Source of the DNA: Saxidomus purpurata | Lineage: Eukaryota > Mollusca > Bivalvia > Venerida > Veneridae | Assembly (NCBI GenBank): GCA_022818135.1 | Contig: JAFMSR010000019.1 | Location: 31,969,863 to 32,033,862, forward strand | Direction of reading: 5' to 3' | Length of the DNA: 64,000 bases | Shown here: piece by piece, positions 41,779 through 63,960 of the stretch | Layout of the letters: the number at the start of each line of letters is the position of its first letter | Position numbering within the stretch: position 1 is the stretch's first letter | The notes under the pieces: generated by a model | Database searches by the model: none | Told to the model about the DNA's origin: nothing | Seen by the model: the letters and a program-made list of their open reading frames with translations, nothing else | Position numbers and translations under genes: made by a program

Positions 41779-42470
<692 letters not shown>

Positions 42471-54900: not shown

Positions 54901-57900
54901 TTGCTTTGTGACAACTTCCATTTTACATAATAGTAGACGATACATTTCCGGACAATTTGGAAAAGGCGTTTGTCAAATTTAGGCAGTATTTTGGAGCGAG
55001 AATATTATTTTGTTTTGATTTTGATTAAATGCTTGCTTATTTTTGTTCTTTTCTTACAATTTTATACAGTTTATAAGACAGGAAAATAGAAACCTCTAAT
55101 CAATATCAACAATCAATATCAAAGGCAGGTACTGTAGGTATAAACTGCAAAATGGAAATTTAACGGCAAAATAGGCAAACGAAGAGGTTTGTTTTAGTTG
55201 CTTCCCTCTGTTTGGGAAAATTGGACTTTTAACGTCTAGCGTCTTCAATCCTTTATAAAGCTGATTATAATTCCAAAACATTTTCGGTGCACAAATTGTT
55301 AACGTTGCATTTATTGTGGAAATTGGTATTAGTTTTATGGGGTTTAATACGTTCTTAAATTGAATTATATGTCCGTCTGCTATCAAGAACAGCAACATTA
55401 ACAATTGAAAGAGCACGTCCAGACCCTCTTCAAAATGCTGCATCATGCACAAGAACAGTTATATTGTTTTCCCCAAAGCATGTTAACAGAAAAGAAAAGT
55501 TATACGAGTTAGTTTTGATGATTTGTGTTGCCAGATACTCACATGAAACAAAAGAATGTTCTTAAGCTGCCAAAAAAAGAAGCATCCTGACGATTGCTTA
55601 TGCTGGATCAAAGCAAAACGTAAAAATATAGCTTACAATGGGGGTGTCAGGAAATAGAACCTGTCCGGAATTACGTCGCCAAGCAGTACATGTACATTAT
55701 AATTGATGTACAACTTCTTAGTGTAAAACATAAATTTATAGATGCAACTGCATAGGTTAAACTCCATGATATTATTATGAATCTTTCTAATGACTTATTT
55801 ATTTACCATTACTGCCAACTGGTGTTGTATTAGGGGTCACCTGTCCACGTCCCCTTAACTCCTTCAAAAGCCCTGTAAATGATTTATCAAATGGATATTT
55901 CCCACTGAAGTCGAAGTATAGCTTCGCTCCTAAAATAAAGCCCAACCATCCATCCGGTCGATACTTCTTCTGTAACATCAATGGAATGTAATCTTTCTTC
56001 AGTTGGAATGTGTACTCTGCCTCTGAATAACAAAAAGAAAATATCATCCATTGAAACAGGGGTGTTGGTAAATATAAATCACAAAATCAAATACTTTTAC
56101 AAACATTAATTGTTTGATTAGGCTAAACCCAAAAATTTGTTTGTTTAGGATAACATCCCAAAAATTACTAGGTAGGGTAGGTAGGGTTTTTTTTTTTTTT
56201 TTTTTTTTTCAAATATACTTTATGACAAAGAGATCATTTCTTGCAAAAAGTGCTATTTCTCGCAATTGTCATAGTTCATATATTGATGTTTGTTATGAAG
56301 CTTTATTCTGTCAAAAAAAACAACACCAAAAAAAACCATTTTTTTTAAAAAACTTTTTTTTCAAATCTTATCCCCCAAAATGACTAGCGTCGGCAACTTT
56401 TAGAAGGTAGGGTCGGGTTACCCAAAACATACACTTTTTTCTTTAGGCCTTATGAGAAAAATTAACTGGCAGAATCCTCCATAATAGCAGATTACCACAC
56501 CCTGCACAAGCACTATACAACTGTAAATTAGTCGGCGTTCTAATCTTTGATTAAAACTGTTCCATCTCTCTTGAACTTTCCATCAAAAATTTCAAAATTC
56601 TTCCCCAATAATATTTTTACAGTCCTCTCCAGAGAGTATTCAAGTTGAGATGAAATGTTGATGTCATATGCTTTATGAAAACTAATTTGTTCAGTAAGTT
56701 TTTCGAGAGACTACAGTAACTTTGATAAGTAAACAATGACAACAGATTCTGCTTTATTTTTTACAAACAATCAATAAAATGTGACTCAAGTATCTTTTCT
56801 TTTACTTAGATTATGTATGTTTTTTTACATAACTGGCCATATAATCTTGCATTTAAATTCAAGGCCGAAAGTGTGACCTTGACCTTCAAGGCAGCTCCCC
56901 AAGCAAACCTACAGTCTTTCATCAGTTTGGGACTAATAAAATACCTATTCAACCATTTGGATTCTGAATGTGTGAATGTGTGCATGCAGATTTAGCACTA
57001 CTGTGTAACTATGTACGTTAGTTAGCTATTTTACCCTCTGGATTCTGAGTGCATTTTGTACTAGCAAATTACCATTAAACTATTAATCAAATACTTATTC
57101 TACCATTTGGATTCTGAATGCCTTTTGTGAAAGCTACTAGGCATTACAAAATGAGAGAGTTATTAGTCCTGTATACTGTCTGTATTTTGTGCATGCAATT
57201 TCGCATCAAAATGTGAAGCTAATGAATATTCTACTATTTAGATTACGCATGTTTTTTGTGTAAGTAAATTAACATAAGTGTGAACTAATGAATATTCTAC
57301 TATAGATTATGCATGTTTTTTGTAAGTAGGAAAGTAAATTAACATAATGTAACTAATGAAATTGTGTATTTGTGCAGTGTTTTGTGCAAGAAAATATTAA
57401 GCATTAAAGTGTTAACTAACAAAATAATTAATGTTCTACCATCGGGATTTTGCATGTATTTTATGGAAGAATATGTGATGCTAATTAATGGTTACCATTT
57501 GGATTCTACGTGCATTGTTACATACTAACATTGTTAGAGATCTACCTGTTCTACAATTCGGATTCTGTTTGTATTTTTCAGACATACAAATGAGCACAAC
57601 AGCTGAGTTTTCAATAGCATTTGCCATTCCCTCCAGAGAAGCTCCAGCCCCTTTCTCTATGTCAATCCATATAGCATAACCTTCAGCCTGTAAAACAAGG
57701 AAATGAGTATTTACTTTGACCACAAAGCAGGAGAAACAATACACTGGTTGTTATTTAACAAGCACAATACAAAAGAAGTCCTGAATCTTACTTTCTTATC
57801 CTTTTGTTGTTGAAAAAATTAAATGCCCTATTACAAATATATTTCCGTCATTTTTACATTCAGGCAGTTTACCTAACCATCATTCCTCTGGAGACCCACT

Positions 57901-59248
57901 ATAAGATCCCTACCCTGTCATGTATGCTGAAAAATGTACTCACCCGTAATCTGTCCCTGATCTGTAATATTGTATAGGTACTCACCTGGTATCTGTCCCT
58001 GATCTGTAATACTGTATAGGTACTCACCCGTAATCTGTCCCTGATCTGTAATATTGTATAGGTACTCACCCGTAATCTGTCCTTGATCTGTAATATTGTA
58101 TAGGTACTCACCCGTAATCTGTCCCTGATCTGTAATACTGTCTAGGTACTCACCCATAATCTGTCCCTGATCTGTAATACTGTCTAGGTACTCACCCATA
58201 ATCTGTCCCTGATCTGTAATACTGTCTAGGTACTCACCCATAATCTGTCCCTGAACTGTAATACTGTCTAGGTACTCACCCATAATCTGTCCCTGATCTG
58301 TAATACTGTCTAGGTACTCACCCATAATCTGTCCCTGATCTGTAATACTGTACAGGTACTCACCTGGTATCTGTCCCTGATCTGTAATACTGTCTAGGTA
58401 CTCACCCGTAATCTGTCCCTGATCTGTAATATTGTATAGGTACTCACCCATAATCTGTCCCTGATCTGTAATACTGTATAGGTAATCACCCATAATCTGT
58501 CCTTGATCTGTAATACTGTATAGGTACTCACCAATCGTCCTATCGTAATACTGTATAGGTAATCACCCGTAATCTGTCCTTGATCTGTAATACTGTATTA
58601 GGTACTCACCCGTAATCTGTCCCTGATCTGTAATATTGTATAGGTACTCACCCATAATCTGTCCCTGATCTGTAATATTGTATAGGTAATCACCCGTAAT
58701 CTGTCCTTGATCTGTAATACTGTATAGGTACTCACCCGTAATCTGTCCCTGATCTGTAATACTGTATAGGTAATCACCCGTAATCTGTCCTTGATCTGTA
58801 ATACTGTATAGGTACTCACCCATAATCTGTCCCTGATCTGTAATACTGTATAGGTAATCACCCGTAATCTGTCCTTGATCTGTAATACTGTATAGGTACT
58901 CACCCGTAATCTGCCCCTGATCTGTAATATTGTATAGGTACTCACCCATAATCTGTCCCTGATCTGTAATTCTGTATAGGTACTCACCCGTAATCTGTCC
59001 TTGATCTGTAATACTGTATAGGTACTCACCCGTAATCTGTCCCTGATCTGTAATACTGTATAGGTAATCACCCGTAATCTGTCCTTGATCTGTAATACTG
59101 TATTAGGTACTCACCCATAATCTGTCCCTGAACTTTAATACTGTACAGGTACTCACCCGTAATCTGTCCCTGATCTGTAATACTGTATCTTTGTCTGACC
59201 ATGAGTAACTGAGGAATACATGTGATTTTGTTGGAGTTCCTTTTGGCT
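51933..59248 (-). CDS. TIR domain plus SAM-like domain protein, 3' part of gene (5' exons outside window)
   Basis: Seven GT-AG exons join in phase on the minus strand: 59248-59157, 57687-57546, 56022-55807, 54493-54437, 53843-53759, 52310-52244 and 52028-51933 (TAG stop). Exons 1-3 encode a TIR domain: HVFLSYSWSDKD (box 1), EGYAIWIDIEKGAGASLEGM (BB-loop side), VVLICMSEKYKQNPNCR, then EAEYTFQLKKDYIPLMLQKK and DGWLGFILGAKLYFDFSGKY. The Glu of NCRTEAEY aligns with the catalytic Glu of NAD-cleaving TIR domains such as SARM1, and its codon is split G|AG by intron 2. Exons 4 and 5 begin with a Ser/Gly/Pro linker. Exons 5-7 form a SAM-like helical domain (EELVKWLRNVKLTE, FLEFDGRLLMQLKQMRVE, FFYQCLEKRLNMSLIEIL). 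The order TIR then SAM is the reverse of SARM1. Exon 1 starts in mid-codon, so more exons lie upstream, possibly encoding other repeats. Likely cytosolic and immune or stress related, by family. Confidence 0.85.
52318..52485. repeat. Direct duplication with a poly-G run, in a TIR-SAM intron
   Basis: AACGTAAGTCATTGAAAA followed by AGAACGG..CTTGAAAAG occurs at 52318-52361 and again at 52427-52485. In the second copy a run of about 25 G separates the halves. This could be G-quadruplex forming; the run length is unreliable. Confidence 0.7.
52637..53245. repeat. Diverged copy of the ACAAGAGGGCC tandem-unit element, in a TIR-SAM intron
   Basis: It starts AAAACAGAGGGCCAGTATGG then CCATGTATAGCTCACCTGG. 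Units carry GGGTCATGATTTGAGCAGTC, TCGGTAGAGCTCCACAAGGC and TAGACCTTGTGGTTAGTCAG. It ends in an AACAGACAGATGGACGACAT stretch. Related to 49598-50853. Confidence 0.65.
56117..56455. mobile_element. MITE-like repeat with TAGGCCTAAA-type ends, in a TIR intron
   Basis: It begins GATTAGGCTAAACCCAAAAA and ends TTTTTTCTTTAGGCCTTATG. Inside are two GGTAGGGT clusters (56170 and 56406) flanking a poly-T run. The ends are loosely inverted. It resembles a common bivalve repeat, from memory. Confidence 0.5.
56940..57512 (-). repeat. Degenerate tandem array resembling the end of TIR exon 2
   Basis: On the minus strand, AGAATCCAAATGGTAGAATA-like blocks occur near 57505, 57450, 57313, 57248, 57115, 57050 and 56966, spaced 55-140 bp. 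The 3' end of the adjacent exon (CAGAATCCGAATTGTAGAAC then AG|GTAGAT, 57572-57541) is the same motif, so the exon end appears to be a member of the array. Between motifs, AACATTAATTA and TTAGTTAACA words also recur. Confidence 0.6.
57935..59156 (-). repeat. 42-bp minisatellite made of TIR exon end plus 5' splice site, about 29 copies
   Basis: Minus-strand unit: ACAGTATTACAGATCAGGGA then CAGATTACGGGTGAGTACCT and AT. The first 30 bp equal the last 30 bp of the TIR exon ending at 59157 (TVLQIRDRLR), and the next bases equal its donor (CGG|GTGAGT). Variants include TGG|GTGAGT, CAG|GTGAGT and CGG|GTGATT. Between about 58560 and 59100 the GTGATT and GTGAGT types largely alternate, an 84-bp higher-order period. 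At 58140-58390 a block of units shares the CTGTCTAGG variant. One unit near 58530 is broken, and single-base insertions occur near 58598 and 59104. Open frames across it are repeat artefacts. Confidence 0.93.
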
Positions 59249-59762: not shown

Positions 59763-60680
59763 CAAATGCAACAAATGCCATTACTCTGACTGCATTTTTT
59801 CATTGCTTATTAGAAGATATCACTCCATATGCCATTACACTGACTGCATGTTTTCATTGCTTATCAGAAGATATCACTCTAATGCCATTACACTGACTGC
59901 ATGTTTTCATTGCTTATCAGAAGATATCACTCTAATGTCATTACACTGACTGCATGTTTTCACTGCTTATCAGAAGATATCACTCTAATGCCATTACACT
60001 GACTGCATGTTTTCATTGCTTATCAGAAGATATCACTCTAATGCCATTACATTGACTGCATGTTTTCATTGCTTATCAGAAGATATCACTCTAATGCCAT
60101 TACACTGACTGCATGTTTTCATTGCTTATCAGAAGATATCACGCTAATGCCATTACAGCCTGTGTGCTTCAGAAGATATCACCAATGCCATTTCACTGTC
60201 TGCATGTTTTCATTGCTTATCAGAAGATACATGCATGCCATTACACTGACGCAGTTTTCATTGCTTATCTGAAGATATCACCTAAGCCATTACAATGACT
60301 GCATGTTTTCATTGCGTATCAGAAGATATCACTCTAATGTCATTACACTGACGCATGTTTTCTTGCTTATCAGAAGATATCACTCTAATGCCATTTCACT
60401 GACTGCATGTTTTCATTGCTTATCAGAAGATATCACGCTAATGCCATTACACTGACTGCATGTTTTCATTGCTTATCAGAAAATATCACTATAATGCCAT
60501 TACACTGACTGCATGTTTTCATTGCTTATCAGAAGATATCACTATAACGCCATTACACCAACTGCATGTTTTCATTGCTTATCAGAAGATATCACTCTAA
60601 TATCATTACACTGACTGCATGTTTTCATTGCTTATCAGACGATATCACTCTAATATCATTACTCTGACTGGATATTTTCA
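59763..60680. repeat. 53-bp minisatellite, about 17 copies
   Basis: The unit reads GAAGATATCACTCTAATGCC then ATTACACTGACTGCATGTTT and TCATTGCTTATCA. A few units have short deletions (about 60160-60360). It lies in the presumed upstream intron of the TIR-SAM gene. I see no exon-like part in the unit. Confidence 0.93.
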
Positions 60681-63440: not shown

Positions 63441-63960
63441 TTCCACCAATCAAGAACCCCTTCACCTGCCAGAACCCATTCACCTGCCAATTCTACCAAT
63501 CAAGAACCCCTTCACCTGCCAGAACCCCTTCATTTGCTAAGGCCACCAATCAAGAACCCCCTCACCTGCCAGAACCCCTTCATTTGCTAAGGCCACCAAT
63601 CAAGAATCCCCTCACCTGCCAGAACCCCTTCATTTGCTAAGGCCACCAATCCAGAACCCTTTCACCTGCCAGAACCCCTTCATCTTCCAATTCCTCCTAT
63701 CAAGAACCCCTTCACCTGCCAGAACCCTTCACCTGCCAAGGCCACCTATCAAAAACTCCTACACCTGCCAATTCCACCTAGTAATAAGAACCCCCTCATT
63801 TGCCAGAACCCCTTCATTTACTAAGGCCACCAATCCAGAACCCCTATACCTGTATATTCCACCTCTTACAAACCCCTTACCAAGGCCACCAATAAAGAAC
63901 CTCTTTAACCTGCAAGAACCCCTTCACTTGCCAGAATCCCTTCACCTGCCAAAGCCACCT
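63441..63960. repeat. 50-bp minisatellite, about 10 copies
   Basis: The unit reads CACCAATCAAGAACCCCTTC then ACCTGCCAGAACCCCTTCAT and TTGCTAAGGC; 50-bp spacing is exact at 63544, 63594 and 63644. On the minus strand each unit contains GGCAG|GTGAAG, a donor-like string. The Pro-rich plus-strand frames are repeat artefacts. No exon is visible up to the window end. Confidence 0.9.

Follow-up and report, generated by a model that had tools for sequence, protein, structure and literature searches.

The TIR gene and its exon borders

The window (the whole 64-kb stretch of DNA analysed) carries on its minus strand a gene in which one TIR domain, a common building block of immune signalling, is composed from three exons (A, B and C; Table 1). 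The ORFs of these exons matched successive, slightly overlapping parts of the Pfam profile TIR_2 (PF13676). Membership of the family was established through the exon B ORF, the only one to pass the curated cut-off alone (profile positions 20-77, E 3.8e-8, 34.3 bits against a cut-off of 28), while the ORFs of exon A (positions 1-28, E 2.7e-4, 21.8 bits) and exon C (a weak match to positions 67-121, E 0.079, 13.9 bits) fell below it. The TIR frame is open over all three exons and the splice borders are clean: exon A is preceded by the acceptor TTTTTTCATTTTTGTAG (12 of 14 pyrimidines) and ends, on the minus strand, with ...SDKDTVLQIRDRLR at 59157, followed by GTGAGTACCT, and across the junction with exon B the frame reads ...HVFLSYSWSDKDTVLQIRDRLR followed by AEGYAIWIDIEKG...

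In total, 73 related proteins were found, the two best named ones being from the molluscs Lymnaea stagnalis and Lottia gigantea; further named mollusc relatives were from Tegillarca granosa, Sinanodonta woodiana and Ylistrum balloti, and named relatives from outside the molluscs belonged to a hemichordate, a fish, a coral, a tunicate and a rotifer. On this basis the window is likely to come from a mollusc. Sequences of 40 of the 73 were examined. Among 17 homologues aligned over the junction of exons A and B, all nine with at least 10 residues before the site were without an insert there. Together with the continuous frame and the succession of TIR_2 matches, this upholds the exon end at 59157 that had been proposed from the sequence alone. 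A Q followed by AEGY at the start of exon B was seen in six of the 40 homologues (P0001, P0050, P0051, P0054, P0057 and P0060), a pattern expected from an intron that ends in CAG at this position, so the intron between exons A and B is probably old. P0013 and P0014 contain a match to exon C in which 45-46% of the joined query is covered at 97-100% identity, the residues before EAEY differing from those of the window. After the second strand, exon B reads GAGASLEGMA where P0050, P0051, P0054 and P0057 have MGGSTLEAMA, so the gene is possibly a divergent copy within the family.

Further downstream, tblastn with the TIR proteins P0006 and P0020 matched a segment at 52031-51939 (full-length queries gave E 1e-4 and 1e-3, respectively, and queries limited to the C-terminal pieces gave 5e-6 and 2e-4), which suggests that the TIR gene continues to this point; Pfam gave no match on the segment alone. 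Proteins of this TIR type often end in a SAM domain, and Pfam gave no confirmation of one on the C-terminal pieces.

Table 1. Features of the TIR gene and of its intronic repeat array, with positions in the window
Feature	Positions	Strand	Basis
TIR exon A, 92 nt, reads PKGTPTKSHVFLSYSWSDKDTVLQIRDRLR; last 32 nt (59188-59157) are repeat copy 1	59157..59248	-	Frame, splice borders, TIR_2 match
Minisatellite, 30 copies of a 42-bp unit (32 nt of exon end plus 10 nt of intron start)	57936..59188	-	Tandem Repeats Finder, donor split, unit comparison
Intron, 1,469 nt, holding 29 of the 30 copies	57688..59156	-	Frame, splice borders
Donor 1, presumed real 5' splice site, CGG/GTGAGT	59151..59156	-	TIR frame kept with zero inserted residues; U1 duplex -12.9 kcal/mol
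Donor 2, TGG/GTGAGT, would add 14 residues (VSTCTVLKFRDRLW) in frame	59109..59114	-	U1 duplex -11.8 kcal/mol, frame
TAA in the TIR frame, met by any transcript from donors 3-30	59103..59105	-	One extra A in the 43-bp unit 3
Unit 16, 35 bp, several scattered base losses; possible residual read error	58532..58566	-	Unit comparison
Donor 20, CAG/GTGAGT, predicted stronger than donor 1	58358..58363	-	-13.6 against -12.9 kcal/mol
Donor 29, CAG/GTGAGT, predicted stronger than donor 1	57980..57985	-	-13.6 against -12.9 kcal/mol
TIR exon B, AEGYAIWIDIEKGAGASLEGMANAIENSAVVLICMSEKYKQNPNCRT	57546..57687	-	Pfam TIR_2 match, borders
TIR exon C, EAEYTFQLKKDYIPLMLQKKYRPDGWLGFILGAKLYFDFSGKYPFDKSFTGLLKELRGRGQ	55841..56022	-	Weak TIR_2 match, high identity in P0013 and P0014
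Likely later exon of the TIR gene, C-terminal segment common to TIR proteins P0006 and P0020	51939..52031	-	tblastn

Structure and probable origin of the 42-bp repeat array

The intron following exon A is largely occupied by a minisatellite with a period of 42 (30.0 copies, 92% matches), the Tandem Repeats Finder score of which (2082) was the highest in the window. Splitting the array at its donors gave 30 contiguous units with no break, one spanning the exon end and 29 lying within the intron, as the sequence-only reading had seen in counting about 29 copies of an exon end with its 5' splice site; the unit itself had been described as 30 coding bases plus a donor, and although the copying of exon end and donor was confirmed, the unit in fact comprises the last 32 nt of the exon and the first 10 nt of the intron. 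Out of 29 donor-to-donor steps, 26 measured 42 bp, two measured 43 bp (units 3 and 15) and one 35 bp (unit 16). The array fills 83% of the intron and stops 248 nt before its end, that is, it takes up most of the intron without running almost to the end as had been stated, and subtraction of the extra units (by length only) leaves an intron of 256 nt. The donors read GTGAGT in 24 of the 30 units, the real one included, and GTGATT in six. Outside the array only 14 GTGAGT were present in the window (both strands summed), or 0.13 per 1,221 nt, which excludes chance as the origin of the donor array. No further copies of the unit were found in the window, the nearest being one 32-base stretch with 12 mismatches, and, as an animal repeat should, the exact 30-base unit pattern went unmatched in collections of prokaryote genomes and of viruses.

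The copy at the exon end agreed with the array consensus over all of its 42 positions, and the 28 intronic units that were compared over columns 1-40 (the 35-bp unit 16 being left out) differed from it at a mean of 1.8 of 40 positions, two of them being identical to it; such a pattern fits a coding copy that is under constraint and served as the source. Since the first TIR helix, encoded by the exon end, is found in the relatives too, the exon is likely to be the source and the array derivative. Altogether 13 kinds of substitution were seen in the 28 units, three of which occur only jointly, in units 20 and 29, and several variants were common to runs of neighbouring units, as expected from expansion by unequal exchange or slippage. 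The GTGATT donors were confined to units with a G-to-A change at position 19 (six of eight such units), and the CpG of the unit had become TpG in 11 of 28 units. A higher-order repeat of 84 bp was weak as a candidate, with mean differences of 2.40 at a lag of two units against 2.69 at a lag of one.

An assembly artefact behind part of the copy number or of the unit indels is hardly credible. Unit 16 has lost bases at several places, in a pattern as from uncorrected read errors, and elsewhere in the window lies a T-rich run with G blocks that resembles poor long-read sequence (41781-42448; 622 bases, 97% T with small G blocks within, then 46 mostly-G bases), which looks like low-quality or artefactual sequence and not biology. 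However, the variants of the array are linked and common to neighbouring units, which an assembler is unlikely to invent, and unit 15, which has the variant background of unit 3, contains the extra A of that unit as well; this speaks against random read error.

No sign of selection on the copies was detected over the 28 intronic units, either in the intactness of the donors or in synonymy in the TIR frame. Taken singly, none of the 13 variant types was synonymous in that frame (24% expected), 11 changing a residue and two creating a stop. The GTGAGT hexamer was intact in 22 of 28 units, relative to a mean of 21.2 over 35 hexamer windows (13 windows were better kept), and the donor octamer likewise in 22, relative to a mean of 19.3 over 33 octamer windows (eight better kept). 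The 9-base donor (-3 to +6) was intact in only 10 of 28 units, with 30 of 32 windows better kept, mainly through the CpG change. Variable columns made up one of eight in the donor octamer and 12 of 32 in the exon part, a difference that was not significant (Fisher p 0.24). Two of the three unit frames are open (one reading has ORFs of 214 and 179 aa, the TIR reading one of 170 aa), but the array was rejected as coding sequence, both open frames being broken by the 43-, 43- and 35-bp units. In the open frame other than that of the TIR domain, five of the 13 variant types were synonymous (21% expected), with no clear constraint. A search with the 179-aa ORF, in which the 7,994 best word-sharing candidates were scored, gave none at E 0.1 or better, and a protein search for the array in relatives, made with the exon A ORF extended into the array, gave zero candidates sharing three words, a weak negative given that short exons are poorly represented there.

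Predicted donor strength and choice

Donor strength was taken as the pairing energy with the 5' end of U1, using the human U1 sequence. In a scan of 59700-55700 (approximately 4 kb, containing 224 GTs), the 24 best-pairing GTs were all donors of the array, the real one included, and an identical 11-base site was shared by 11 of the 24 GTGAGT donors, again including the real one. Relative to donor 1, the predicted pairing of the 29 extra donors was stronger in two cases, equal in 10, somewhat weaker in 11 and weak in the six with GTGATT; that is, 12 of 29 pair at least as well as donor 1. The two other donors of the TIR gene reached only -8.0 and -8.1 kcal/mol. Neither donor strength nor predicted RNA accessibility singled out donor 1. 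Its predicted openness over the 9-base donor was 0.0035, relative to medians of 0.009 for the array and 0.045 for the region, and the idea that RNA structure masks all donors except donor 1 was thus unsupported; a 289-nt stretch of the array folded worse than 199 of 200 shuffles (z +2.17). Good acceptors were absent from the array, the best candidate having 8 of 14 pyrimidines against 11-12 of 14 at the three exons.

Use of donor 1 would give an exon of 92 nt, use of donor 2 one of 134 nt, and use of donors 29-30 exons of 1,263-1,305 nt. As had been predicted, donor 2 would lengthen the protein in frame by 14 residues and the stop of unit 3 would truncate the product of every later donor: donors 3-30 share the same TAA, only donor 2 among the downstream units would lengthen the protein, and the TIR domain reads intact with donor 1 or 2 only.

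We consider it rather probable that the array is a neutral expansion sourced from the exon end, with most splicing predicted to take place at the first donor. It would have started as a tandem duplication across the exon-intron border and could have grown to 30 copies through unequal exchange or slippage, and its presence would be tolerated since a working donor persists in the exon copy. Exon definition is an established rule, and because the acceptor that lies 92 nt ahead of donor 1 is strong, this rule would favour donor 1, and less so donor 2 with its exon of 134 nt. Donor 2 may accordingly be used less often, its product having the additional 14 residues placed after the first TIR helix and ahead of the next strand, while transcripts from donors 3-30 would stop at the common TAA and probably be lost to nonsense-mediated decay. 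On this view the array would be a mild load which now and then yields a lengthened form of the TIR protein. The reading is also favoured by the change of CpG to TpG in the units, the abundance of tandem repeats in the window, the want of good acceptors in the array, the lack of an insert in the nine relatives and the restriction of an intact TIR domain to donors 1 and 2. Against neutrality, the donor octamer has fewer variable columns than the exon part (at the non-significant p value given above) and is intact in more units than the mean octamer; against predominant use of donor 1, neither donor strength nor predicted accessibility sets it apart, and the intron-proximal rule would favour the last donors.

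Appreciable use of both donors 1 and 2, as in the IFI6 case below, would make the array a source of two TIR proteins differing by 14 residues, which we regard as unlikely. Donor 2 keeps the frame without a stop and its predicted pairing (-11.8) comes close to that of donor 1 (-12.9), and PMC4526556 has two downstream units of human IFI6 serving as donors for three mRNA species; against this, unit 2 carries three residue changes relative to the exon copy (Q to K, I to F and R to W), so it is not under tight coding constraint, and the insert is lacking in all nine informative relatives.

Dominance of the intron-proximal donors (29-30) is very improbable; most of the message would then carry the TAA, and this gene copy would be largely silenced or dying. 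It needs exons of 1,263-1,305 nt, far from the usual size of an internal exon, and is difficult to reconcile with a TIR frame that is open over three exons. Donor 29 is, on the other hand, one of the two strongest, and a preference for intron-proximal sites among comparable 5' splice sites is reported in PMC6002489.

The sequence-only reading had left the array between a role in donor competition, or as a sink for U1, and neutrality. The capacity for competition was borne out by the donors that pair at least as well as donor 1 (12 of 29), whereas a selected function was not: donor intactness is near average (22 of 28 against 21.2) and zero of the 13 variant types are synonymous, by which the neutral option is better supported. 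A working competition device, in which side-by-side U1 snRNPs set the amount of productive TIR message and the rest is lost to the TAA, appears quite unlikely. It would account for the concentration of the 24 best-pairing GTs within the array, relative to the weak remaining donors of the gene, and for the fact that all 28 donors beyond the second lead to one stop. The period of 42 nt also exceeds the U1 footprint of 35 nt (23 nt upstream plus 12 nt downstream, as quoted in PMC6002489), and neighbouring donors could therefore be occupied together. However, the donor hexamers are kept only about as well as other hexamers of the unit, six units carry a donor-weakening G to T at +5, and a title cited in PMC6002489 has surplus U1 purged from alternative sites in the transition from complex E to A.

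A neutral array may still affect splicing, since neutral copies can still compete for U1. In a stronger form, to which we assign a low probability, the intron would be a U1-loading array in which a period just above the U1 footprint lets up to 24 strong donors be held by U1 together, and array length, which would differ between individuals, sets the shares of TIR message going to donor 1, donor 2 and the common stop; if true, this would be a heritable means of tuning an innate immune gene, evolved separately from the case of human IFI6.

PMC6002489, citing Roca 2013, describes as not known what makes splicing prefer one of two comparable 5' splice sites, and the same paper states this of the basis of the intron-proximal preference as well. 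The intron presents 24 GTGAGT donors at a near-regular spacing of 42 nt in one natural transcript, wide enough for each to hold its own U1, and the gene would therefore make a natural test of choice among many near-equal splice sites, for which the rules differ in the donor they predict: the first by exon definition, the last by intron proximity, and donors 20 and 29 by strength.

Related repeats at splice sites and other tandem repeats of the window

The minisatellite of human 6-16/IFI6 has a unit of 12 bp in about 26 copies and begins near an exon end, and a repeat of the IFI6 type is defined here as a tandem repeat that begins in an exon and continues into the intron. The present array has both features of this type, as the repeat (59188-57936) crosses the border at 59157/59156 and a donor-like sequence is found in each of 30 units. 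That the IFI6 minisatellite supplies multiple splice donors is stated in a title found in the reference lists of PMC2572611, PMC4526556 and PMC2915984, and PMC4526556 describes the two downstream repeat units acting as donors and the three resulting mRNA species. A published precedent, which the sequence-only reading had not named, thus exists: this kind of object is already known from IFI6, and the array is a new form of it in an unrelated gene.

In both cases a minisatellite offers several donors to one transcript. The differences are that the unit here is 42 bp with 32 nt of exon code, as opposed to 12 bp; that the 42-nt period could in principle let neighbouring donors hold U1 together, which a 12-nt period would not allow; that only donor 2 would be productive here, and the gene and likely the phylum are unrelated; and that use of downstream donors has been reported for IFI6, whereas here it is putative. 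No donor array in a TIR or mollusc gene was reported in the titles and abstract openings of the literature searched, in which subscription papers were thinly covered. The array would be another example, beside human IFI6, of a minisatellite that multiplies donors, in a gene with a domain frequent in innate immunity.

Internal tandem repeats at exon-intron boundaries have also been described in human segmental-duplication genes, where, according to PMC2812944, units average 30 bp in four repeats over 160 bp and novel introns are formed at the border. The resemblance lies in a minisatellite expansion at an exon-intron border that can alter splicing; unlike those repeats, the array here reaches 1.25 kb, the intron is probably old and zero usable acceptors have been copied. 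Intron gain by a duplicated proto-splice site (PMC2891723) is similar in that the duplication takes in a splice motif. It requires the copied unit to provide both a donor and an acceptor that flank a new intron, and with at most 8 of 14 pyrimidines in the array there is no new intron here, the donors being without usable acceptors.

Tandem repeats are frequent in the window, with 42 rows reported by Tandem Repeats Finder when overlapping rows and homopolymers are counted. A second minisatellite, with a 53-bp unit in approximately 17 copies arranged in two blocks, lies upstream of exon A at 59774-60680, probably in the preceding intron or the flank of the gene, and tandem units of 50 bp and 18 bp are present at 63443-63951, with open frames on the plus strand.
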